Source: a virus. From it: DNA of 36,050 nt. The position numbers and the translations under genes were made by a program. The notes beneath the pieces are model-generated. The model made no database searches and was not told the origin of the DNA. It worked only from the letters and a program-made list of their open reading frames with translations. Shown piece after piece: positions 1 to 36,050 of this stretch. Each line of letters opens with the position of its first letter. Position 1 is the stretch's first letter. Location: positions 1-36,050 of the IMG/VR virus record IMGVR_UViG_3300042939_000219. The stretch is one strand, 5' to 3'.

Positions 1-188
1 GCGGAGGGCACTTCGGTTCACGGCTTGTACAGATGTATACTGTCAGCCACTAAAGGAGACTGCGATGACTATACGAGAGTTGCTGATTGAGCGGTACGCC
101 CCGCTGCGTGGATTGAAGGACCGGAGCGTGGTCATATTCGGCCAGACCGTGGACAGGCTCGAGGAGTTCCTCGGGCGAACCGCCACGC
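1..188. repeat. Terminal direct repeat, left copy
   Basis: This stretch is repeated at the right end (35863-36050) over its full length, with one difference (G at 62, C at 35924). It covers the integrase promoter region and the first 41 integrase codons. The repeat has no independent content, so the simplest reading is a circular or circularly permuted genome cut open at an arbitrary point with about 188 bp of overlap. A true short terminal repeat cannot be excluded, but a break inside the integrase gene argues against it. Confidence 0.95.
13..50 (+). promoter_or_regulatory. Candidate integrase promoter with inverted repeat
   Basis: TATACT at 36-41 is a near-consensus -10 box 23 nt before the integrase ATG. 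No good -35 box sits 16-18 bp upstream. An ACAG-N7-CTGT inverted repeat (29-32 and 40-43) overlaps the -10 box and could bind a regulator such as the divergent excisionase-like protein. The same sequence lies at 35875-35912 in the right copy. Promoter activity is inferred from the motif only. Confidence 0.45.
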
Positions 189-3947: not shown

Positions 3948-6287
3948 TCACTCGTTTACGTCTGTGATCTGAATAGTGAACGACTTGTCAAAATAAAATC
4001 CGCTTGTGTCTGTCGTGCGAATGGTCACGCTCGCCGATGGCTCTTGCTCGTAGTCAAATGCCCTAGACGTTTTGAGCACATTCCCCACGATCTGAAATCC
4101 ATCGCCGCTGACGATTGTATATGTGTGCGAGTCGTTGAACGCCGGGTCGTTTAGGTCGGCGTCCGTGGTTGTCAAGGTTCCGACAGTGGTGCTGGAAGGC
4201 TCGTTTTCTGCCACTGTGTTTGACGATAGCGTGATGTCAGTCGGTGCGCTGCTGATGACCAGCGTTGATGTTGTGGAAACATACTTGGCCTTCACCTGGG
4301 TGCCGGTAAGCGTTGGCGCGTAGCTCTGCTGTGTCGAGCCGCCGAACAGCACGTACTGAGCTTCAGGCGCTGGATCGCCAGTGAAGTCCACTGTCAGCGT
4401 TGTATTGGTAAACGTCGCCGAGTCCGCAAGGCTGCCTGGATTCGTTTTGATGTCCGTGAACACGACGGTGCCGTACAGGAACGACACGGTGCCGCTAGTG
4501 TTGAGCGTGCGAACCATCCGCACTTCGCCTGTGTAGCCAGGCATGCCGAACGTGATGTCTACCGTGGGGTCTCCGGTGCCGGCAGCATTCTTCATGAAGC
4601 CGCCAAAGAAAGTCGTGGAGCCGCCATCGGCCACGAGCGTTACGGCTCTGCCTAGCCGCACGTCGTTCTGGAAATCGACAGTGCCCGAGCCGCGACCGCC
4701 GACAACGACCGTCTGATCGCCGCTTGACGCTTGCACGCTGATGACCTTGTCGGTCGAAAATCCGCCGTCGATGAAAAGCCGAGCCGTTCCGCCAATGCCG
4801 GATGCGGTGTCGCCAACAAGCACCTCCTGCACGCCGGCTGCGCCAAAAGCACCGGACGAACCAAAGGCGTCGCGGCCAGCAACCAACGTGCCCTGCTTTA
4901 CCTGAACAGGCTCGGTGAATGTGTTCGCGCCGCTGAGAACCCACAAGCCAGTGCCGCTCTTTACAACGGTTGTGGTGTAGCTCAAAGACGCATCAGAAAT
5001 AGCACCGGCAATCTCGTTGTCCTCGGCGTTCGTGCCCGTCAGTGTCAGCGTCCGTGAGCAGTCGCCAGCGTGCGTGATAGGCGTGGTCAGAATAAGTGGA
5101 TCTGTGCCGCTCGCGTCAATGGTGGCGTCTCCACGCATGACGATTGTCGCATTGCTCGTGTGTCCCGGCCCGGTGTACAGCAGCGTGGTCACGCAGTCAT
5201 ATTCGCAATTTCCGAGCCACACGGTGATGTCGTTGCAGCCCGAGAACTCAAGCGACTCGGTGTCAGTCGGCAACTGCTTCCAACACACAGTCACGGACAA
5301 ATCACAGAAGGCACTGCCGCATGGCACAGGCTCGATGTTAAACGCATCCCAGCACATCACGAACGTCTGGCTAAACGAAACAAAATCGCAGCTGCATTCG
5401 GCAGTTGGAGCGACCAGCGTGCCGTGGATGCGTATCGGCGACTTCGTGGTGCCGGTCACGGTCACTTCAATTGTGTCGCTAAACTCAGGCTGCCGGCTCT
5501 TGCGTGGCTGATAGAACGTCAGCCCGTACCCCTTGCTGGCGTGCGTTTCGCAGCAGCACAACGTGAGCGGATCTCGGCAGCGAAACAGCCCCTCTTCGCA
5601 CTTCTCGCACTCCGTAGAACCGACCCCTTGGAATTGACCGCCAGCCGCTTCGCACTCGGCCTGTGTCATCGGCGAGTTTTCGTGAGGCACGAGCTCGCCG
5701 TCTTCTTCGACACAGCACGCCCCCTTGCATGCCGTGGGGCACGGCTCAGTGTCTAGAGTGCCGGTGCAATCGGCCTGCTCTGTCGTTTCGCAAACGACCT
5801 GCCCGTCTGAGTTTTCTGTGCAGCAGGACTGCGGGCATCCGTCGTAGCAACAACGCAAAGCAGACCACTCGTGAGCGCAGTCGGCCTCGAGAGTGTCAGT
5901 GCAGTTGTTTCCATCGCAGCATCGGCCCTTGCAGCCAGTAAAGTTGCCCTGTAGGTCAAATGGAAATACCGTAGTCAAAGCATCGCACACAGGACAGCAC
6001 AAGTCTTCCAACAAGTCAGCCATGTTGACCAACTCTTGGACGCGGCCGTCGAAGATTTGCTCTGGCAGGCAGCCGCAGCACTGGTCGTTTTCCCCCCAAC
6101 GGAAGAATGCCTTGCCCTCTGGGCATGGGTTGTCATTCGGGTGCCACGTGTCACCGCAACACTCGCCAGAGTTTTTTGGAGTGCGCCATACACCGCCGCA
6201 GCACACGCCGTCACAACACGTTGCGCTGGCCACAATTTTGCCATCGCGTAGAACCGGGCCACCGTCGTTGAACGGAATGGTGGTCAT
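3948..6287 (-). CDS. Large mosaic tail fibre / adhesin: Cys-rich, autotransporter-repeat and cadherin-like parts
   Basis: A 779-residue protein in three parts. Residues 20-410 hold 46 cysteines, with three tandem units of the form CxxxCC...AxC (about 119-137, 151-174, 187-212). Residues about 430-670 are Gly/Thr/Val-rich beta strands, including an autotransporter-associated repeat (GLWVLSGANTFTEPVQVKQG, 448-467). Residues about 675-779 look cadherin-like (VAENEPSSTTVGTLTTTDAD, ending ITDVNE). No cysteine occurs after 410. The last tail-module position and the adhesive domains suggest a receptor-binding fibre or tip protein. The ATG overlaps the preceding stop (ATGA). No intramolecular chaperone domain is evident. 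Cys-rich units of this type are, as I recall, frequent in secreted planctomycete proteins. Confidence 0.75.
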   Translation of the reverse strand: MTTIPFNDGGPVLRDGKIVASATCCDGVCCGGVWRTPKNSGECCGDTWHPNDNPCPEGKAFFRWGENDQCCGCLPEQIFDGRVQELVNMADLLEDLCCPVCDALTTVFPFDLQGNFTGCKGRCCDGNNCTDTLEADCAHEWSALRCCYDGCPQSCCTENSDGQVVCETTEQADCTGTLDTEPCPTACKGACCVEEDGELVPHENSPMTQAECEAAGGQFQGVGSTECEKCEEGLFRCRDPLTLCCCETHASKGYGLTFYQPRKSRQPEFSDTIEVTVTGTTKSPIRIHGTLVAPTAECSCDFVSFSQTFVMCWDAFNIEPVPCGSAFCDLSVTVCWKQLPTDTESLEFSGCNDITVWLGNCEYDCVTTLLYTGPGHTSNATIVMRGDATIDASGTDPLILTTPITHAGDCSRTLTLTGTNAEDNEIAGAISDASLSYTTTVVKSGTGLWVLSGANTFTEPVQVKQGTLVAGRDAFGSSGAFGAAGVQEVLVGDTASGIGGTARLFIDGGFSTDKVISVQASSGDQTVVVGGRGSGTVDFQNDVRLGRAVTLVADGGSTTFFGGFMKNAAGTGDPTVDITFGMPGYTGEVRMVRTLNTSGTVSFLYGTVVFTDIKTNPGSLADSATFTNTTLTVDFTGDPAPEAQYVLFGGSTQQSYAPTLTGTQVKAKYVSTTSTLVISSAPTDITLSSNTVAENEPSSTTVGTLTTTDADLNDPAFNDSHTYTIVSGDGFQIVGNVLKTSRAFDYEQEPSASVTIRTTDTSGFYFDKSFTIQITDVNE

Positions 6288-6769
6288 GACGCTGTGGAGC
6301 ACGACGTAATGTCGTACCAACGTATGCACTGATTCGCGTCGTGCCCAAGCATCTGCACGTTCGTGCCTTGATAGCCAGGCAGGATACTCATGTCGAAGCC
6401 GGCGATGTATCTAGTGCATGTGGCCGTGTCTGGGTGAACCGCGACGGCGTACCATCCGAAGCCATTGTTGCCAAGTGCGACCCACTGACACGTGCTGTTG
6501 CCTGACACGCTCAAAAACTGATTGTGCGCTACGACCGTGATGGCAGAGGCCACGCTGCCGGGCGTGCCGTTGTAGATGGTGACAACAGCAGACGAGCTTG
6601 CTGGCCAGTTTGTGCCAGAGTGGCGAGCAAGCATGAGACGCACACCGCGAGACATGGTGGCGTCTTTCTCGCCGCTCAAGTCTAGGCGTGGCTCGTCACG
6701 CTCGACCAGGCGAACGGCCTTGCCGATACGCTTGGCGTCGTTGAGTGAAAAGCCGAACGTGTCAGCCAT
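6284..6769 (-). CDS. Putative minor tail protein
   Basis: A 161-residue protein. The N-terminal 45 residues are charged and helical (LNDAKRIGKAVRLVERDEPR); the rest is beta-rich with small residues and four cysteines (QWVALGNNGFGWYAVAVHP). I do not recognise a named domain. It starts seven bases after GAGGAG, four bases after the previous stop, and overlaps the fibre gene. It probably forms part of the distal tail or links the fibre to the tail, on position alone. Confidence 0.6.
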   Translation of the reverse strand: MADTFGFSLNDAKRIGKAVRLVERDEPRLDLSGEKDATMSRGVRLMLARHSGTNWPASSSAVVTIYNGTPGSVASAITVVAHNQFLSVSGNSTCQWVALGNNGFGWYAVAVHPDTATCTRYIAGFDMSILPGYQGTNVQMLGHDANQCIRWYDITSCSTAS

Positions 6770-13141: not shown

Positions 13142-13370
13142 GCTTGGGCCTCCCTCGCTTGGCCTTGGCCACCGGAGCCACCGCCCGCTCAACCGCCGGC
13201 TCGGGGGCCGTGGCGAACTCGAACGCCGGGGGCTCGACGTGCCGCACGGCGTACCGCTGGAGCTCGAGCGTGCGGGCCAGCCCGCCCGTGACGGGCACCA
13301 CCTGGCCAGCCTTGTACGCTGCGTATGACCGCAGGAACCGGACCTGCACCATCGGGATCGCCGTGCTCAT
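13134..13370 (-). CDS. Small basic head-region protein
   Basis: A 78-residue protein. The first half (VQVRFLRSYAAYKAGQVVPVTGGLARTLELQRYAV) is a compact beta-like module similar to small proteins found between capsid and connector genes in many siphophages. The second half is a disordered Ala/Pro/Lys tail ending KRGRPKRA, resembling an AT-hook-like basic tip. It begins in an ATGA overlap with the glycosyltransferase gene. Function unknown; structural or DNA-contacting roles are both possible. Confidence 0.6.
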   Translation of the reverse strand: MSTAIPMVQVRFLRSYAAYKAGQVVPVTGGLARTLELQRYAVRHVEPPAFEFATAPEPAVERAVAPVAKAKRGRPKRA

Positions 13371-14137
13371 TTCCACACGTTCTCCGGTGGCCTGCCGCCT
13401 CGGTCCCAGAAATCGCCAGGGTGCTGCAGGCTCGCTCGCATGTTCTGGTCGGGCCACTTGATCCACACCTCGGCGTGGCCCAGCACGACCCGAGGACACA
13501 CGCCAATCTTCAGCCCAGCCTTCTGAGCCGTGACCCAGAACGCTATGTCGTCGTCCATCCGGCCTTCGTCCCACCGGCCCTGGTCGTTGGGCCTGCCGAT
13601 GAACCACGGGTGAGGCATCTTTTTCAACGCCTCTGCCTTTAGCATCGTGAATCCGAAGTGGGCCGTGTTGGCTTGCACCACGTTGTGGTAGACGAAGTGA
13701 TCGCGGGCCACCTCGGCCACACGCTCGCCCTGGTCAGACATCATCGTGAACAGCGGCTCTTCCGTGCGTCGCTTCATCTGCACGGCCGCCACGCAGTCGT
13801 AACCGCTGGCCACGGCGTACGTCAGCAGCCGAGGAACGGCGTCTGCTTCCCAGACGCTGTCATAGTCCAGCGTGAGAATCCACAGCGGCGGGGCTTGCGG
13901 GTCGTTGTCAGCCTCGACGATGTCGGTCAGTACCCGCTCCAGGCACTGGCCCCAGAACGCACCCTCCAGGCGAATCGGGGAAATGCCGTACGGCACCAGG
14001 CCACGAGCCCAGCAGAACATGTGGTCCTGCCAGCCGAGCCGAGGCACGGACATGGCACAGTGCACACGGATCGGCCCGCTGCCGGTCTGAATGATGGCAG
14101 GCTTGACGCCAGCCACCGCCGAAGTCGCCGCGCCCAC
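13367..14137 (-). CDS. Glycosyltransferase-like protein inside the head module
   Basis: A 256-residue GT-A-type protein. The probable DxD metal-sugar motif is D91-Y-D93 in WILTLDYDSVW, and a second acidic cluster, MDDDIAFW (194-201), matches the catalytic-base region of such enzymes. It would transfer a sugar from a nucleotide donor; acceptor unknown. The GTG start has GGAGGA just upstream. Its setting between capsid, connector and decoration-like genes is unusual and suggests virion glycosylation, but it may act on any surface. The call rests on motifs and length; the subfamily is not assigned. Confidence 0.72.
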   Translation of the reverse strand: MGAATSAVAGVKPAIIQTGSGPIRVHCAMSVPRLGWQDHMFCWARGLVPYGISPIRLEGAFWGQCLERVLTDIVEADNDPQAPPLWILTLDYDSVWEADAVPRLLTYAVASGYDCVAAVQMKRRTEEPLFTMMSDQGERVAEVARDHFVYHNVVQANTAHFGFTMLKAEALKKMPHPWFIGRPNDQGRWDEGRMDDDIAFWVTAQKAGLKIGVCPRVVLGHAEVWIKWPDQNMRASLQHPGDFWDRGGRPPENVWK

Positions 14138-22726: not shown

Positions 22727-22996
22727 TCAGTTTCTCCCCGGCTCGGGCGTGGTCACGCTGGTCGTGTATGCCTTCTCTCGCGGCTGTAGTGCATAGAGCA
22801 GGCGTGTCTGCTCGGTGATGGCCTCAGCGATGCCCTTCTGCGTCTCGCCCAACTGCCGCACGAACGACCTGTGCTCCTCGACCAGTGGCAACAGAACGTC
22901 ATTCCGCAGCACCCATCCGGCAGCCAACGCTACCAAAGTGGGAAAGCCCCACTTGTTCAGGATGTCGAACATAGTTTCCTTCGCTGCGTCAGTCAT
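22727..22996 (-). CDS. Small membrane protein, holin candidate
   Basis: The 89-residue protein has one N-terminal membrane helix (WGFPTLVALAAGWVL, about 16-30), then an amphipathic/coiled segment HRSFVRQLGETQKGIAEAITEQ and a polar tail. This layout resembles BhlA/YvrJ-type holin-like proteins. It starts inside the end of the upstream gene (8-bp overlap), in a cluster with a peptidase and a lipoprotein, which supports a lysis role. Pore formation is not shown. Confidence 0.6.
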   Translation of the reverse strand: MTDAAKETMFDILNKWGFPTLVALAAGWVLRNDVLLPLVEEHRSFVRQLGETQKGIAEAITEQTRLLYALQPREKAYTTSVTTPEPGRN

Positions 22997-23339
22997 GGTG
23001 TCGGCTCTCGCGGACGAGTAAACGCATGCTGGATTGGTTCTCCTGCCGCTCCAGCCACCAGCGTATGAGGATCTTTACAACCTCTTGCACCAACGCCCCC
23101 AGCACGAGCGTCAGGATGATGCCCATGCCGTACTCGTGGCGTACCTGGCGTTCGATGTTCTTGGCCATGTGCTTGCCGACCACGGCCGTCTCTGCAGCGT
23201 CGCACTGTTGCAGCACCGGGATGGGCCACGCGGCGACGGCACGGCGAACGATGCGGCCGACGATCCGGCGGCCAGCGATGGTTCGCTGGATGGTTGGCAC
23301 ACGGTCCCAGGCGTACTGCTCGAGGTCGTCCATTGTCAT
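22989..23339 (-). CDS. Membrane protein with C-terminal membrane helix
   Basis: A 116-residue basic protein. Residues 20-40 hold an Arg-rich region (AGRRIVGRIVRRAVA); one hydrophobic helix lies near 71-93 (GMGIILTLVLGALVQEVVKIL), followed by a basic tail. It starts in an ATGA overlap with the lipoprotein gene and ends overlapping the holin candidate. It could be part of the lysis cassette (holin, antiholin or inner spanin partner), but I see no decisive spanin features. Confidence 0.55.
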   Translation of the reverse strand: MTMDDLEQYAWDRVPTIQRTIAGRRIVGRIVRRAVAAWPIPVLQQCDAAETAVVGKHMAKNIERQVRHEYGMGIILTLVLGALVQEVVKILIRWWLERQENQSSMRLLVRESRHHD

Positions 23340-23635
23340 GGCTTGCACTTCCCGTCTGCGCACTTGACCACGCTCTTGGGCTCGCGGCCCGTGCCGCCGC
23401 ATGCGGTGCATGTGATCTTGATGCGGCCGTCTCCCACGTAACCGAGCCCGTCGCAGTTCTTGCACTTCCCGTCGCTCGGCGGTGCCGGCGGTGCCGGCGT
23501 GGGGGCGATCTCCGCACGCATCCGCACGACCATGCGGGCCGTCTCGGCGGCCAGGTCGGCAGTGATCCCGCCGTCGCCTGGCAGCGTGGCGACGCAGCCG
23601 GCCATGACGATGACGAAGGCGAGCAGGAAACGCAT
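23336..23635 (-). CDS. Putative lipoprotein with DnaJ-type zinc-knuckle motifs
   Basis: A 99-residue protein. The N-terminus MRFLLAFVIVMAGC is a lipoprotein signal ending at a VMAGC lipobox (Cys14). A Pro/Ala linker follows, then KCKNCDGLGYVGDGR and CTACGGTG (two CxxCxGxG knuckles, as in DnaJ), and KCADGKCK. It would be anchored in a membrane facing the periplasm. Membership of the lysis block suggests a spanin-like or regulator role; the knuckles suggest metal binding or a disulphide-rich ectodomain. The start overlaps the peptidase stop (TGATG). Confidence 0.68.
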   Translation of the reverse strand: MRFLLAFVIVMAGCVATLPGDGGITADLAAETARMVVRMRAEIAPTPAPPAPPSDGKCKNCDGLGYVGDGRIKITCTACGGTGREPKSVVKCADGKCKP

Positions 23636-24558
23636 CAGAGAATCCCCCGCAGCCAATCGTCTGGCAGTTGCGTTGGCTTGAAGCCGCTGAACCCGGCGTA
23701 GACGTAGGAGTCACGCCCGCTGAGCATGCGGTCGCACACGTCAGCGTCGATCCAGAACGAGCAATTGCGAACGGCGGCCGGCATGTCGTGCGGGTAGTGC
23801 TTGCCGACCGTGTTGGAGTCGCCCCACGAATTGGCACAGAGCAGGCCGGGCCGCTTGCCGTAGCGGGCACCGATCAGGCACATGCAATGCCACCAGACGC
23901 CGCCGGCACGGCAGAAGCCGTCATCGTCACGGCTCATGGAAAAGCCCTGCCCGCTGCACACAACGACCGGGTAGCCGTTGCTGATGGCAGCAGCCGCCTG
24001 CTCAAAGTTCACCGCCAATGTAGTTTCCGCACACCGCCGCTCCTTGGCGAACGGCTCGAGCACGTCGGGCACACCGTTGCGGCCCCATTCGCGGTCCCTG
24101 GCCTGCTTGTCTTCCTCGCGGATGATCGTCCCGCCGTAGTCCACGCCGTAGTGCAGCGAGCCAAAATCTCTGATGGCCTTGGCGGCGTGGAAGCCCGTTG
24201 ACCCGTCGCCGCCCGTGTTGGCACGGATGCCACGGGCTTCGACACGGGAGAACCCGTAGAGGCTCGATTCAATCGTGCGGCCCTTCCACGCCTCTGGCTC
24301 TTTCCGCCAGTGAATGTCGCACGCAGCGAGCACGTCCACTGCGAGCGACGAGCCCCAGCCCACGCAGCTGCCGACGTTTCCCTGCGAACCTCGCCGCCAG
24401 GTGGGCGAGCACGCCAGCAGGGCCGGGTACAGCATCACGTCCTCGCCGGCCGCCCGCAGGTCAGGCCCGGCCGATGCGAGCGTCGGGTGCGGAAGAGTCG
24501 CTACGAACGACTCGGCGCCGGCAGGATCGGGCACATAGCCCATGCCACGGTCGGCCAT
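23635..24558 (-). CDS. Papain-like (C1) cysteine peptidase, candidate lysis enzyme
   Basis: A 307-residue protein. The papain tetrad is visible: Gln59, Cys65 in QGNVGSCVGWGSS (six residues apart, as in papain), His224 (WWHCMCLIGAR) and Asn243 (CANSWGD). No signal peptide is obvious. C1A peptidases cleave proteins; the target might be cell-envelope protein. It is the only plausible lytic enzyme I can see in the genome, sitting between membrane proteins. The ATG has AAGGGG upstream. A processing or virion role is the main alternative. Confidence 0.82.
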   Translation of the reverse strand: MADRGMGYVPDPAGAESFVATLPHPTLASAGPDLRAAGEDVMLYPALLACSPTWRRGSQGNVGSCVGWGSSLAVDVLAACDIHWRKEPEAWKGRTIESSLYGFSRVEARGIRANTGGDGSTGFHAAKAIRDFGSLHYGVDYGGTIIREEDKQARDREWGRNGVPDVLEPFAKERRCAETTLAVNFEQAAAAISNGYPVVVCSGQGFSMSRDDDGFCRAGGVWWHCMCLIGARYGKRPGLLCANSWGDSNTVGKHYPHDMPAAVRNCSFWIDADVCDRMLSGRDSYVYAGFSGFKPTQLPDDWLRGIL

Positions 24559-24561
24559 GCG

Positions 24562-25167
24562 TCACCCCTTGCCAACGCCGGCCCATGCCACGGCCTTACA
24601 GAACGCCACGTAGCGGGCACGCACGTCCGAGGTGACCGGCACCACGTCCTTGCCCAGTGCGGTCGCGTAGGCGGACTCTACGGCCTTCCGCAGCGATTCG
24701 TTGCTGCCAGGAACATGCCCGCCAATCCGCCGCCACCCGATGTCCACGGCCACGGCCGTGAACGCCCGCAGGGACCGCGTGTCGGAAAAAACCACCTCGG
24801 TGGTGACGGCGTCGCCGGCCGCCACGGTCGCCGCCTTGGTCCAGATTTCCGCCCACAGGGCACGGTCAACGGCCGACGCACCACCCAGGGCATCGGCGAC
24901 GGGCTGCACGAGCGTCTGCATCTCGGCACTCGGCGTCTCGACCGTTACAGCGGGAGCCGAGGCGGGCAGCTGCGGCAGAGGGATCTTGCCCCAGCCGGCA
25001 GCGAGGAGCAGGCATGCGGCGGCGACCCTGGCGAGCAGCCCGGCTTTTTCTTTTGCGGCTTCCACCGCACGGTGCGCTGCGGCTTGGATCTGTGACCAGA
25101 AGGGAGCAGCGAGTAGAGCCGCCGCAGCAGCCACGGCAGCGGCGCGAAGAGCAGCGTCATAGCTCAC
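24562..25167 (-). CDS. Ala-rich membrane protein
   Basis: A 201-residue protein from a GTG in a GTGA overlap, with GGAGG seven bases upstream. Residues 8-25 (AAVAAAAALLAAPFW) and about 43-58 (VAAACLLLAAGWGKI) are hydrophobic helices; the remaining 140 residues are soluble (SLRAFTAVAVDIGWRRIGGHV, DVRARYVAFCKAVAW). It may be a holin or anchored lysis accessory, judging by its position directly before the papain-like peptidase. No family is recognised. Confidence 0.58.
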   Translation of the reverse strand: MSYDAALRAAAVAAAAALLAAPFWSQIQAAAHRAVEAAKEKAGLLARVAAACLLLAAGWGKIPLPQLPASAPAVTVETPSAEMQTLVQPVADALGGASAVDRALWAEIWTKAATVAAGDAVTTEVVFSDTRSLRAFTAVAVDIGWRRIGGHVPGSNESLRKAVESAYATALGKDVVPVTSDVRARYVAFCKAVAWAGVGKG

Positions 25168-25469
25168 CGAATGGCCTCCACCTGCAGCAACAGCCACCGC
25201 ACCATGGCCTCGCCTTCCTTGGTCTTCAGCATGTCAGCGAGCAGCCGCACCAGTTGGTCATCGGCCTGGGCCTTCGTCTGAGACGCCAGCCACTCGGCGG
25301 CCTCGCTGACGATGAGCGACTTCCGGTACGGGTCGAGCTCGGCAACGAACCGCTGGCCGTACCCGATGAGCGGCGACCACTTCTGCAGCAGCATCAGCGA
25401 CTGCCAGAGGTTGAGCGAGTTGCCGTACTTGGCGGCCTCGGCTGGCGATGCTCCAAACTGCTCGGCCAT
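25164..25469 (-). CDS. Small helical hypothetical protein
   Basis: A 101-residue helical protein: QFGASPAEAAKYGNSLNLWQSLMLLQKWSP, then an acidic/Leu-rich C-terminus DDQLVRLLADMLKTKEGEAMVRWLLLQ. The ATG (25467-25469) has GGAGG nine bases upstream. An alternative start at 25598, also with GGAGG, would add 43 residues, but that extension uses several rare codons (ATA, AGA, CTA), so I prefer the shorter form. Function unknown; it opens the lysis-like block. Confidence 0.6.
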   Translation of the reverse strand: MAEQFGASPAEAAKYGNSLNLWQSLMLLQKWSPLIGYGQRFVAELDPYRKSLIVSEAAEWLASQTKAQADDQLVRLLADMLKTKEGEAMVRWLLLQVEAIR

Positions 25470-25625
25470 TAGATGCGTCCTCCGTGACGTGATGCGTCCG
25501 CGACTGTATCGGCCGTCGCTGTGGCTGATGCCTATCGACCAGGCCGGTATCTCGACGCGGCGTCTTTCGCCGTTACGGTCCCGAGCGAATCCGGGCATGG
25601 ACGGCCTCCGTGCCGCACCTTCACT
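25470..25625. other. Intergenic gap before the lysis block
   Basis: A 156-bp gap, with a small CGGCG-AAAGA-CGCCG hairpin on the - strand. No convincing promoter or terminator is visible. A late promoter could lie here since it separates the sugar-modification genes from the lysis genes, but the best -10-like TACAGT has no -35 partner. Confidence 0.35.
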
Positions 25626-26303
25626 TTACGCACCAGCGGGCTCGGCCTTGCGGGTTTCCCTGGCAGCCACACGCCGCAGCATCTCGACCTTCGGATCAAC
25701 TCCGATGCACCAGTTGGCGTGCCACGCGACGCACCCAGGTGGAACGTCGAACGACTCCCCGGCCCACACGGTGCGGTTGCCGAGCGTCGCCCAGTTGCAC
25801 ACCTTGTCCGATGGCAAGACGCTGATAGGCACCGGCAACTCGCCGTGCATCTGCTCGCATTGCATCCGCAGTTGGTGAATCACGTCTTGGTCTGGCAGGT
25901 TCCAGATGGGCGACAGGTCGGAAATGAGTCGCCAGAAAGCGTGCGTCCTCGAGGTGGACCGGAACAGCATCACGCCGGCACACCACTGCACCACGTCATC
26001 GCTCATGGCGATCTCGTCGAAGCCCTGCGTGGCTATCTGACGCTCGGCCCACGCCGCCAAGCCGGGCAATAAGACAACGTCCGAGTCCACGTACAGCGTC
26101 GGCTCGCCATCCATCGGCAGCCGCATGAGGCAGTCGAGCTTGTCGAGCATGCAGTCATTCCAGCCTTCTCCCTTGAACGAGCCGGTCGGGCACCGCTGCC
26201 GATACTGGGTGGCTCGCACGTCTGAGAACCGTGCGGCCCGAGACAGCACGAACTGCTCGCACATGGCCTTGTGCGTCGGCGTGTAGTAGGTAACGAGTCG
26301 CAT
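25626..26303 (-). CDS. Glycosyltransferase-like protein with DxD motif
   Basis: A 225-residue protein whose central motif YVDSDVVLL (71-79, D73-x-D75) is the DxD of GT-A glycosyltransferases such as families 8 and 77. The N-terminus MRLVTYYTPTHKAMCEQFVLSR and the later GVMLFRSTSRTHAFWRLI support this. The ATG is two bases after the preceding stop. It is one of two glycosyltransferases that lie next to a methyltransferase; the donor and acceptor are not predictable. Confidence 0.8.
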   Translation of the reverse strand: MRLVTYYTPTHKAMCEQFVLSRAARFSDVRATQYRQRCPTGSFKGEGWNDCMLDKLDCLMRLPMDGEPTLYVDSDVVLLPGLAAWAERQIATQGFDEIAMSDDVVQWCAGVMLFRSTSRTHAFWRLISDLSPIWNLPDQDVIHQLRMQCEQMHGELPVPISVLPSDKVCNWATLGNRTVWAGESFDVPPGCVAWHANWCIGVDPKVEMLRRVAARETRKAEPAGA

Positions 26304-26305
26304 GA

Positions 26306-27076
26306 TTAGCAAGGGTGATGAGCCCGCAGTGCCCTCGTACTTGAGGATGACACCTCGTGCCACTCGTCCACGCGAGGGCCGGGTGTCGTTTCGATCCAGT
26401 GGCGGTTTAGGTGGTGCTCACGATGCCACGCCGCGCCGGGCACGTGAGCACCACCCTCCGCGCCAATGTTCTGCACGCGAGCCAGCATCGGCCGCACTTC
26501 GTAGCGGTCGCGTCGCGTAAGCTTGTCTATGACCGTGTCCCACGAAACCTGCCGGTCATCAGCCGGCCAGTGCTCGCGGATGCTTTCCCAGCGGTCACGC
26601 CAGGTGGCCCAGCCCCACGGCGTGAACCACGCCTCACGAAAGACGGCGTTGCGGTAGCCAACCTCCTCGACCGGCGTCCGCTGGTAGCCGCACACGGAAA
26701 ACACAGTCGCGTCTTTCTCGTACACGGTCAGCCCCCAATCGGCAAACCGCAGGAAGTCGCGGCCTGGCACGGTGTCATCTTCCATGGCAATGACGCGATC
26801 ATGGTGGTCGAACCCGTACGCCAGGGCCGAGTACGTGTTGACGTTGCAGCCAACCTTCTGGCTACCAACCATGACGAATGCCTTGACGTGCGGCAGCTGC
26901 GTGAACGCGGCGGCAATGCTGATGACCTCGTCGTTGACGGGCTCGCACAGCAGGCCGATAGGGAAGCGGTCCACGTCATCGCAGCGGGCCAGAGCATCGA
27001 GCACGGTCTTGGTGTAGCCGGGCCGGTTGCACAGCGTCATCACGACGCACGTGTTTCGTTTCTGGTTAGTAGCCAT
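26306..27076 (-). CDS. Glycosyltransferase, GT-A (family 2 / GNT-I-like)
   Basis: A 256-residue protein: VVMTLCNRPGYTKTVLDALARC (opening beta-alpha of a GT-A fold), AMEDDTVPGRDFLRF (EDD at 99-101, DxD equivalent), and FREAWFTPWGWATWRDRW, a strong signature of GNT-I-like sugar transferases. It would transfer a sugar to a phage or host glycan. It overlaps the end of the HTH gene by 11 bp. Codon use is like its neighbours, so a recent transfer is not indicated. Confidence 0.84.
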   Translation of the reverse strand: MATNQKRNTCVVMTLCNRPGYTKTVLDALARCDDVDRFPIGLLCEPVNDEVISIAAAFTQLPHVKAFVMVGSQKVGCNVNTYSALAYGFDHHDRVIAMEDDTVPGRDFLRFADWGLTVYEKDATVFSVCGYQRTPVEEVGYRNAVFREAWFTPWGWATWRDRWESIREHWPADDRQVSWDTVIDKLTRRDRYEVRPMLARVQNIGAEGGAHVPGAAWHREHHLNRHWIETTPGPRVDEWHEVSSSSTRALRAHHPC

Positions 27077-27356
27077 GGACTGCCGTGCTGCTGTAGATGG
27101 TGTGCGGCTCGCCGACCCACCGCAGCTTCCTGTCGGTCGGCGTCCAGTTTGTTTGTTGGGCCAGGCACCGCAGCCGGATGACCTCTGGTGTCGGTGGGGC
27201 TTCGTCGTCGTCTGCGCCATAGCGTTTCTGCAGTCCGTACATCATGCGGAGCTTGGCAAGCGTCGAGAACGAGTAGCCGAGCACAGACGCGATCTCGGCC
27301 AGCGGCACGCCTTGCTGCCACATGCGTTCAAATCGCCGCCTGGTGCGTTCGTCCAT
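27066..27356 (-). CDS. Small helix-turn-helix protein
   Basis: A 96-residue protein. Residues 1-37 (DERTRRRFERMWQQGVPLAEIASVLGYSFSTLAKLRMMYGL) form a helix-turn-helix like those in GcrA-type or sigma-70 region 4 proteins. The C-terminal part is unstructured. It resembles the 98-residue HTH protein at 28630-28926 in design. It may regulate the neighbouring sugar genes or be a small terminase-like adaptor; neither is proven. Confidence 0.65.
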   Translation of the reverse strand: MDERTRRRFERMWQQGVPLAEIASVLGYSFSTLAKLRMMYGLQKRYGADDDEAPPTPEVIRLRCLAQQTNWTPTDRKLRWVGEPHTIYSSTAVHGY

Positions 27357-28289: not shown

Positions 28290-28571
28290 TCACCGGTAGC
28301 GGATCACGGCGAACCACATGCGACGGGCCGGCGAGTAGGCGACACCTTCCTCAACGATGACGCGGCGGCCGAAGTAGCAGCAGTTCCGCCGGGCCTGCTC
28401 GGGCGTCGAGCCCATGCCGATGCCCTCGTATTGGCCGCACGACGAATGCACGAGCACGCCGCGCCGGGCGATGATCGCGGCATGATCCTGGGCCGTGACG
28501 ATCACGACCGGGCCGGCGGCTTCAGCCGTGAAGCACGCCACGGCCACCAGGCAAGCGAGAAGCAAACGCAT
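28290..28571 (-). CDS. Small exported protein with signal peptide
   Basis: The 93-residue product has a signal peptide (MRLLLACLVAVACFTAEAA, cut likely after residue 19). The mature part has three cysteines (SCGQ, NCCYFGRR) and a C-terminal WFAVIRYR. I recall similar short exported proteins in Planctomycetes, without known function. The ATG has GGAGG seven bases upstream. It is placed between an HTH gene and rusA, so it may modify the host envelope rather than serve in replication. Confidence 0.65.
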   Translation of the reverse strand: MRLLLACLVAVACFTAEAAGPVVIVTAQDHAAIIARRGVLVHSSCGQYEGIGMGSTPEQARRNCCYFGRRVIVEEGVAYSPARRMWFAVIRYR

Positions 28572-28928: not shown

Positions 28929-30032
28929 TCAGCCCTCCGCAGCCAGCGGCATGATGACGCCGGTGTAGGGACCGCAACGCAGCAGCACCCGGCTCTGTGC
29001 GTCAGCAACGTACACGTCCACCTGCGGCTCTTCGTCAGCCGGAAGGTGACGCAGGAAGTCGTGCAGGAACTTCGGGTCGAGCTTTGTGCTCGATGTCGTG
29101 CCGGCCGACACCACGTCGCACGACACCCGGCTCTCGCCGTACTCGGCCGAGCGGCCCGCCAGCGTCAGCGTGTCGCTCGTCCACGCCAGGTCGATGCCCT
29201 TCGACTGCTCGCTCGTCACGATGGCCGCAGCGTCAACCGCCGACAGCAGATCCGCGACGTTGAGCACCGACGCCTCGCCTTCCGGCTCGCCGACCACGTC
29301 ACGCCACCTGGGAAAACGGCCGTCCACCAGCCGGCCCGTGATGGTCACGGCGTCGAGCGTGAAACGCACCTCGCTGGCGTTGGCCTCGACCTGCACCGAG
29401 CCGTCGCCTACGGCCATGCTGGCTGCGATAGCCATGAGCCGGCCCGGCACGATGGTCTGCGAGTCATCCACCGCCTGGTCAGTCTCGGTCTCAACGCACG
29501 AGAGCCGCCTGCCATCGGTCGCCACCCACGTGGGGTTGCCGTTCGTCACGTCGATGAGCACGCCGCCCAAGGCAAAGCGGCTGGACTCGGTGTCCGTGGC
29601 GTAGACGGTCGAGCGAGCCGCACGGGCGAACTGGTCCGCCGGCAGCCGGCAGATGGCCTTGAGCCCTGCCGGCTCCCACGTCGGGTACTCGGCCGCGTCC
29701 TCCGTTGGCAGCGTCCACGAGCCGGCACCGCACTTCACCACCACGCTCGTGCCCTTCGGCGTCAGCGTCACGCTGTCACCGGTCGCCGTCCGCAAGATGG
29801 CCGCGAGCTTCATGGCCGGCAGCAACACAGCGTCGCCGTGGTAGTCAATCTCGCGGTCGATTCGCACCTCGAGGTCCGTGCCCGTGAGCAGCCCGTCACC
29901 GAGGCGGACGTTCTGCAGAATCGGCTTCGGGCTTCTCGCCGCCACTGCCTTGGCCACAGCCGCCAGGGCTTCGCTCAGTGTCGTGCGGTCCAACGTGATG
30001 CCAGCCTTGCGTTCCTTCGTTGCCGTAGCCAT
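28929..30032 (-). CDS. dnaN: DNA polymerase III beta sliding clamp
   Basis: A full-length 367-residue clamp. Diagnostic segments are PILQNVRL, SSRFALGGVLIDV, VATDGRRLSCVETE, GRFPRWRDVV, FLHDFLRHLP and the C-terminal YTGVIMPLAAEG. It would encircle DNA and tether a polymerase; no phage polymerase gene is visible, so it should recruit the host replicase or repair enzymes. The ATG (30030-30032) has AAAAGGA upstream. Length equals bacterial DnaN, so it could be host-derived. Confidence 0.95.
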   Translation of the reverse strand: MATATKERKAGITLDRTTLSEALAAVAKAVAARSPKPILQNVRLGDGLLTGTDLEVRIDREIDYHGDAVLLPAMKLAAILRTATGDSVTLTPKGTSVVVKCGAGSWTLPTEDAAEYPTWEPAGLKAICRLPADQFARAARSTVYATDTESSRFALGGVLIDVTNGNPTWVATDGRRLSCVETETDQAVDDSQTIVPGRLMAIAASMAVGDGSVQVEANASEVRFTLDAVTITGRLVDGRFPRWRDVVGEPEGEASVLNVADLLSAVDAAAIVTSEQSKGIDLAWTSDTLTLAGRSAEYGESRVSCDVVSAGTTSSTKLDPKFLHDFLRHLPADEEPQVDVYVADAQSRVLLRCGPYTGVIMPLAAEG

Positions 30033-30141
30033 GTGACATCCTTTTCTTTGAGAGTGAACAACCAACCAAAAGACCCAGCACGAACGTGAGGGCCAGACTG
30101 ATGTGGCCGATGCTGATCAAGGCGAACTCGGTGAAGGTCAC
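29896..30141 (-). CDS. Small membrane protein overlapping the dnaN start
   Basis: An 81-codon ORF beginning with GTG in a GTGA overlap. Residues 4-28 (TEFALISIGHISLALTFVLGLLVG) form one membrane helix followed by a basic patch (SLSKKR), and the last 46 codons overlap the dnaN coding region in another frame. The N-terminal part looks real and the overlapped tail is low-complexity, so the functional protein may be only the first part. A real but short phage membrane protein is the favoured view. Confidence 0.45.
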   Translation of the reverse strand: MTFTEFALISIGHISLALTFVLGLLVGCSLSKKRMSHGYGNEGTQGWHHVGPHDTERSPGGCGQGSGGEKPEADSAERPPR

Positions 30142-35862: not shown

Positions 35863-36050
35863 GCGGAGGGCACTTCGGTTCACGGCTTGTACAGATGTAT
35901 ACTGTCAGCCACTAAAGGAGACTCCGATGACTATACGAGAGTTGCTGATTGAGCGGTACGCCCCGCTGCGTGGATTGAAGGACCGGAGCGTGGTCATATT
36001 CGGCCAGACCGTGGACAGGCTCGAGGAGTTCCTCGGGCGAACCGCCACGC
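35863..36050. repeat. Terminal direct repeat, right copy
   Basis: This is the second copy of bases 1-188, identical except at 35924 (C instead of G at 62). It ends inside integrase. It is redundancy from the circular map, not a second att site as far as the sequence shows. Confidence 0.95.
35927..36050 (+). CDS. int: Integrase, partial copy (start of the gene at 65-985)
   Basis: The first 41 codons of the integrase gene are repeated here and run off the window. The sequence is the same as in 65-188. It is not a separate gene; the full gene is complete at the left end. Confidence 0.93.
   Translation, partial: MTIRELLIERYAPLRGLKDRSVVIFGQTVDRLEEFLGRTAT

Follow-up and report, generated by a model that had tools for sequence, protein, structure and literature searches.

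A papain-family cysteine peptidase probably serves as the lytic enzyme in a phage lysis cassette of a new kind. Uncultured freshwater phages of a large group appear to use such a papain-type enzyme to burst their host, and they encode it next to membrane proteins, in the place that the cell-wall-cutting enzyme has in other phages. All tailed phages have to leave their host, and the lysis enzymes known to us belong to a handful of peptidoglycan hydrolase families. The observations behind this reading are the predicted fold of the peptidase, its conserved residues, its place in an operon, the lambda-like position of that operon, the exchange of the enzyme for other C1 peptidases, the membrane anchor of a sister clade (clade 2), and the lack of other recognised hydrolases; from these we infer lysis, its timing, the substrate, and the roles of holin and spanin. 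The peptidase is encoded in the window, by which we mean the whole stretch of DNA that was analysed (a virus record of 36,050 bases), and papain-type enzymes are carried by more than two hundred environmental phage contigs. The features of the window are given in Table 1.

Table 1. Coordinates of the genome ends and of the cassette genes in the window.
Feature	Position	Strand	Remarks
Terminal direct repeat, left copy	1..188		187/188 identical to 35863-36050
Terminal direct repeat, right copy	35863..36050		
Probable physical end of virion DNA (cos-like)	20327		Between HNH gene and small terminase
Small conserved protein, cassette head	25164..25469	minus	ORF 25164-25598 probably too long, because the start in most relatives matches the Met at 25469
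211-aa partner	24562..25197	minus	Hydrophobic N-terminal helices (two to three), all-helical domain
Papain-family (C1A-like) cysteine peptidase	23635..24558	minus	307 aa, ATG start
Small lipoprotein, candidate o-spanin-like	23336..23635	minus	Lipobox VMAGC, Pro-rich linker, four-Cys region
Membrane protein, holin/antiholin candidate	22989..23339	minus	One TM segment near the C terminus
89-aa protein, holin/i-spanin candidate	22727..22996	minus	N-terminal TM segment, then probable coiled coil

Search for other lytic enzymes

The window begins and ends with the same 188 bp apart from one mismatch. This suggests a complete genome of about 35,862 bp, and in a genome that looks complete the absence of a hydrolase is meaningful. 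Pfam and PHROG scans revealed no peptidoglycan hydrolase among the genes of the window, the M23 family being covered by the Pfam scans of these genes. Direct family searches found no SLT in 33 records and no Phage_lysozyme, Amidase_2, NLPC_P60, CHAP or M15_3 in 26 records; the controls were detected in both cases. Pfam scans also revealed no lytic enzyme in the listed gene families shared among 17 relatives, nor among the families listed for the unique genes of four genomes with end repeats (the A4 Pfam result lists 25 of 29 families). Unique genes were scanned in these four of the 17 relatives and left out for 13, and since the unique genes of the 13 lie outside the Pfam scan, it is the direct family searches that carry the argument for the relatives. 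A preliminary description of this DNA had seen no lysozyme, amidase, transglycosylase, CHAP or NlpC/P60 gene, and this holds: none of these, nor M15, was found in the window or in 25 related records. Among recognised families, the peptidase is the sole lytic-enzyme candidate in an apparently complete genome.

Active site and fold of the peptidase

The predicted catalytic tetrad of the window peptidase consists of Q59 (in SQGNVGSC), C65, H224 (WWHC) and N243 (ANSWG), with C65 six residues after Q59 as in papain. The reading frame is real, and its GC3 of 0.82 is in line with the coding genes of the window; the preliminary description had given the frame, the residue numbers of the tetrad and the papain Q-C spacing correctly, and the tetrad is conserved among relatives, but it had left out the strand, which is minus. 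Neither a signal peptide nor a TM segment was found in the protein.

A scan of viral contigs returned 81 close relatives of the peptidase, and a profile built from 44 of these found 123. The 44 aligned sequences show no variation at Q59, C65 and H224, and conservation of N243 is at least 90%. When 149 sequences from two clades were pooled, the Gln was present in 148/148, the Cys in 148/148, the His in 149/149 and the Asn in 148/149, and the NSWG motif around the Asn was likewise kept in 148 of the 149. Only 37 columns are invariant across clades 1 and 2, and with so few, the presence of three of the four predicted catalytic residues among them is not chance. The single Asn exception is the peptidase at L052:5561-6442, in which an internal deletion removes the NSWG motif with its Asn; this is either a dead enzyme or a sequencing error.

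An AlphaFold model made from the clade-1 alignment (pLDDT 75.7, pTM 0.83) was assigned the papain C1A fold with Foldseek and VIA-align. The nearest solved structure is xylellain from Xylella (3OIS; Z 19.6, 234 residues, 3.0 A), and papains and cathepsins align with Z scores of 15-17. A structure prediction had been proposed as a check, and the modelled fold and the Q, C, H, N tetrad together uphold the papain-family identity of the enzyme. Sequence searches were silent by comparison with the fold: the window peptidase has no usable match in Pfam, PHROG or NCBIfam and no hydrolase domain match above cut-off in any of the three, the PF00112 profile matches none of clades 1, 2 and 3 significantly, and a PDB sequence search with the protein and with its profile returned nothing significant. 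Because PF00112 is unmatched, we label the protein C1-like by fold and motifs and not a plain PF00112 member; judged by the modelled fold and the motifs, it is a C1-type peptidase from an undescribed branch. Neither PF00877 (NlpC/P60) nor PF05257 (CHAP) matches it, which speaks against an NlpC/P60 or CHAP lysin. In the collection of isolated phages that was searched, nothing matched the window's enzyme, clade 2 or clade 3; the plasmids searched with clade 2 gave no match, and no paper describing a C1-type phage lysis enzyme was found in the open-access papers searched.

Composition and conservation of the cassette

The genes at 25164, 24562, the peptidase, and those at 23336, 22989 and 22727 follow one another in this order on one strand in nearly all of the 96 loci that are long enough to show the cassette. 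A search of the lysis cassettes of relatives had been suggested in the preliminary description, which placed the peptidase among holin-like and lipoprotein genes; the same cassette was found in relatives, and the setting is confirmed by the VMAGC lipobox of the protein at 23336-23635 and by TM segments in three neighbours. The ATG of the lipoprotein gene overlaps the stop codon of the peptidase (TGATG at 23635), and the start of the 22989-23339 gene overlaps the stop codon of the lipoprotein (ATGA). The Cys region of the lipoprotein resembles a zinc ribbon (CKNCDGLGY..CTACGGTG). The helical domain of the 211-aa partner matched no known fold.

Holin and spanin roles of these proteins are suggested by topology alone. 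An o-spanin is recognised by its lipobox and an i-spanin by its N-terminal TM segment (PMC6139136). The topology found here agrees, with the VMAGC lipobox in the 23336 protein and an N-terminal TM segment and probable coiled coil (the latter recognised by eye) in the 22727 protein; the gene order does not, as an o-spanin gene is expected inside or behind the i-spanin gene, whereas here the lipoprotein gene comes first and one gene stands between the two. For this reason the pair is called only spanin-like. In lambda Rz/Rz1 the order is the reverse of this lipoprotein-then-coiled-coil arrangement.

TerL identity between phages with the same cassette ranges from 37 to 99%, and their terminase, portal and capsid genes vary widely; therefore, the cassette moves as a unit. 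As a check on selection bias, loci were also collected from three starting points other than the enzyme, which overlap in some contigs, so that the counts are not mutually independent: a C1 gene is present in 79/80 loci found by the 211-aa partner alone (the remaining contig ends 38 nt past the partner), in 16/17 loci selected by DnaN with at least 8.5 kb downstream, and in 14/14 loci selected by HNH with at least 3.2 kb upstream. The DnaN-selected exception, L279, is an incomplete contig with no C1 gene within 10 kb, and no replacement lysin was found in the sequenced part of it.

Position of the cassette in the genome

Several related contigs begin at the position of the cos-like end or align within about 10 bases of it (AGC...GGCATCGAAATC), and relative to this end the cassette lies close to the right-hand terminus of the virion genome. 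Read from 20327, the order is terminase, portal, protease, capsid, tail, integrase, RecT, replication, DnaN, RusA, cassette, HNH and end. The lysis genes of lambda and HK97 lie at the corresponding place, between the replication genes and the cos end. Several phages of clade 2 instead have the cassette between the prohead protease and major capsid genes, an atypical position for lysis genes, and because this is often so in clade 2, we regard the position as supportive and not decisive. Most TerL relatives start at the cos-like end, and the cassette is for that reason not visible in them.

Other genes of the window deserve mention. The DNA polymerase III beta clamp DnaN (28929-30065), unusual for a 36-kb temperate phage, has a counterpart of 33-77% identity in 9/9 whole relatives compared. 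A small secreted Cys-containing protein (28290-28571), possibly a regulator or inhibitor, is encoded upstream of the cassette in about 30 loci. Three glycosyltransferase-like genes lie at 25626-27220 and 13367-14137; the one at 13367-14137 is located between capsid and head-completion genes, as it is in most relatives. The tail region encodes a 793-aa protein (3948-6329) with many Cys pairs, a PATR motif and a cadherin-like domain.

Exchange of the enzyme and the membrane anchor of clade 2

Clade 2, which was reached through a distant member in a contig of a metagenome-assembled genome (MAG), comprises 118 loci, and its enzymes are about 37% identical to those of clade 1. The Gln and Cys are six positions apart in most of clade 1, the window's clade, and five apart in clade 2 and in L078. 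A third C1 clade occupies the same cassette (L403:4557-5552 and L418:4640-5635; 27-28% identical), with the motifs QTRGDC..GWAHA..QNSWG, a Q-x4-C spacing, and the His and NSWG kept. Furthermore, the genomes G017 (L061) and G037 (L172) share a second, unrelated phage backbone of 47-63 kb, in which one carries a clade-1 enzyme and the other a clade-2 enzyme at matching places with similar genes upstream. The third clade in L403 and L418 and the switch between clades 1 and 2 in G017 and G037 therefore indicate that the enzymes have been exchanged, always for another C1 peptidase.

An N-terminal TM segment is present in 64/76 called clade-2 ORFs; the other 12 begin at a contig end or have a start called too far upstream, and where they are readable the anchor lies further in. 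Because of this predicted N-terminal anchor, the clade-2 enzyme probably acts outside the inner membrane. Endolysins also come in a signal-anchored form (SAR endolysins) and a signal-less form (lambda R), and the occurrence of both an anchored form (clade 2) and a signal-less form (the window's clade) points to a target outside the inner membrane. The window peptidase was itself considered as a SAR endolysin and rejected, as the N-terminal releasable anchor is absent. A homolog of the Cys-ribbon of the lipoprotein adjoins many clade-2 enzymes, and a weak relative of the 24562 protein is encoded upstream of a few of them.

Possible host

A Planctomycete host with an atypical envelope had been proposed as the setting of a protease-based lysis, and the proposal found no support: the sole link to cellular genomes consists of two small contigs, and both of these C1 phage contigs (L082 and L098) come from one MAG labelled Alphaproteobacteria (LLD_269, Lake Lanier). 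This link may be a binning error or a hint at the host; no further match was found in 398 genomes of the phylum of that MAG. An atypical envelope is a weak argument too, because Planctomycetes possess peptidoglycan (PMC4432640).

Proposed mechanism and alternative explanations

In the mechanism that we propose, the C1 peptidase would do the work that normally falls to a lysozyme, amidase or transglycosylase. The signal-less enzyme of the window's clade would wait in the cytoplasm until the holin candidates of the cassette open the inner membrane, and its crossing would need an adjacent membrane protein acting as a holin; the sister-clade enzyme is held in the inner membrane by its own anchor, with the catalytic domain predicted on the outer side, like a SAR endolysin. 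Once outside, the enzyme may cut a load-bearing peptide bond of the envelope, in a peptidoglycan peptide or in a peptidoglycan-linked envelope protein, and the lipoprotein and the coiled-coil membrane protein may then break up the outer membrane, much as spanins do. It speaks against the lytic reading that the substrates of classical C1 enzymes are ordinary proteins and not peptidoglycan with its D-amino acids. It is possible, if doubtful, that a true protease opens the cell by cleaving an envelope-stabilising protein and not the peptidoglycan. If the peptidase is the lytic enzyme, a C1-type family is added to the lysis toolkit; protease lysis, if true, would mean that phages can open cells by a chemistry new to lysis, and an enzyme that cuts protein would show another place where the bacterial envelope is vulnerable.

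One counterpoint to the C1 enzyme as the lytic agent is the 211-aa partner, whose helical domain could be a hydrolase that has escaped recognition. The cassette would still serve lysis, with the wall cut by this or another unrecognised cassette protein, and the C1 peptidase would be an accessory that activates or releases the partner or removes host envelope proteins. Strong conservation of the partner's domain, its lack of a known fold and the strict coupling of the partner to the C1 enzyme speak for such an arrangement; however, the recognisable invariant active site is that of the C1 enzyme and not of the partner, and in clade 2 the partner has changed almost beyond recognition whereas the C1 enzyme is clearly kept. 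We consider this explanation unlikely.

A role in lysogenic conversion is unlikely as well. The cassette would then be a module for envelope modification or superinfection exclusion, expressed from the prophage, with an exported peptidase that trims host surface proteins or receptors. The phages look temperate, with integrase homologs in the window and in 15/17 relatives, glycosyltransferase genes adjoin the cassette, and upstream of the C1 cassette some relatives encode a trypsin-like serine protease that is secreted and has a GDSGG motif (L101:14488-15279, L203:9333-10121 and L208:2017-2802). Conversion genes are usually patchy, however, and this cassette accompanies its neighbours almost everywhere; a conversion role would moreover leave the phages with no recognised lysis enzyme, and the clade-1 enzyme has no export signal.

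That the peptidase is a virion or morphogenesis protein, such as a second maturation protease or an injected protease, is very improbable: in clade 2 the gene is often flanked by those for the prohead protease and the major capsid protein, but a Peptidase_S78 prohead protease is already encoded, the enzyme is tied to the cassette, not to the capsid genes, which vary among the phages that have it, and a place at the cell envelope is suggested by the clade-2 anchor and by the lipoprotein partner.

Comparison with known systems

The lytic reading of the C1 peptidase can be set against several known groups of proteins. Fold relatives in BFVD include 'Peptidase_C1' proteins of uncultured Caudovirales (among them A0A6J5TCZ4), and some bear names of peptidoglycan functions, A0A6J5MXS7 being annotated 'Peptidoglycan binding-like' and A0A8S5PQA2 'N acetylmuramidase'. 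These proteins share the predicted fold with the window enzyme but are only 14-18% identical to it and have another architecture; we know of no experiment on them. With xylellain and the papain C1A peptidases, the enzyme has in common the fold, the Q-C-H-N order and the NSWG motif, whereas it differs in its identity of about 15% without a significant sequence-profile match, in having no recognised propeptide, and in being phage-encoded within an operon of membrane proteins.

Papain-fold lysins of phages are known in the CHAP, NlpC/P60 and Amidase_5 families, of which CHAP and NlpC/P60 enzymes cut peptidoglycan (PMC10318531). Like the window enzyme, these are cysteine enzymes of the papain-like superfamily, theirs serving lysis (PMC10318531); all three are nevertheless separate families, and the window enzyme has papain's own Gln and NSWG. 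The SAR endolysins of P1 (Lyz) and N4 resemble clade 2 in the N-terminal anchor and in a catalytic domain predicted to lie outside, but the window's own protein has no anchor, and that of clade 2 is a candidate for release only. The SAR endolysins that we know of are muralytic enzymes.

The closest parallel in arrangement is offered by the S-R-Rz/Rz1 genes of lambda and by HK97-like phages, with which the cassette shares its position between the replication genes and the cos end; like that of lambda, it sets an enzyme free of export signals beside membrane proteins and a small Pro-rich lipoprotein. Unlike the lambda and HK97 cassettes, it carries a C1-type enzyme, no peptidoglycan hydrolase domain was found, its lipoprotein gene precedes the coiled-coil gene, and it includes extra conserved proteins.
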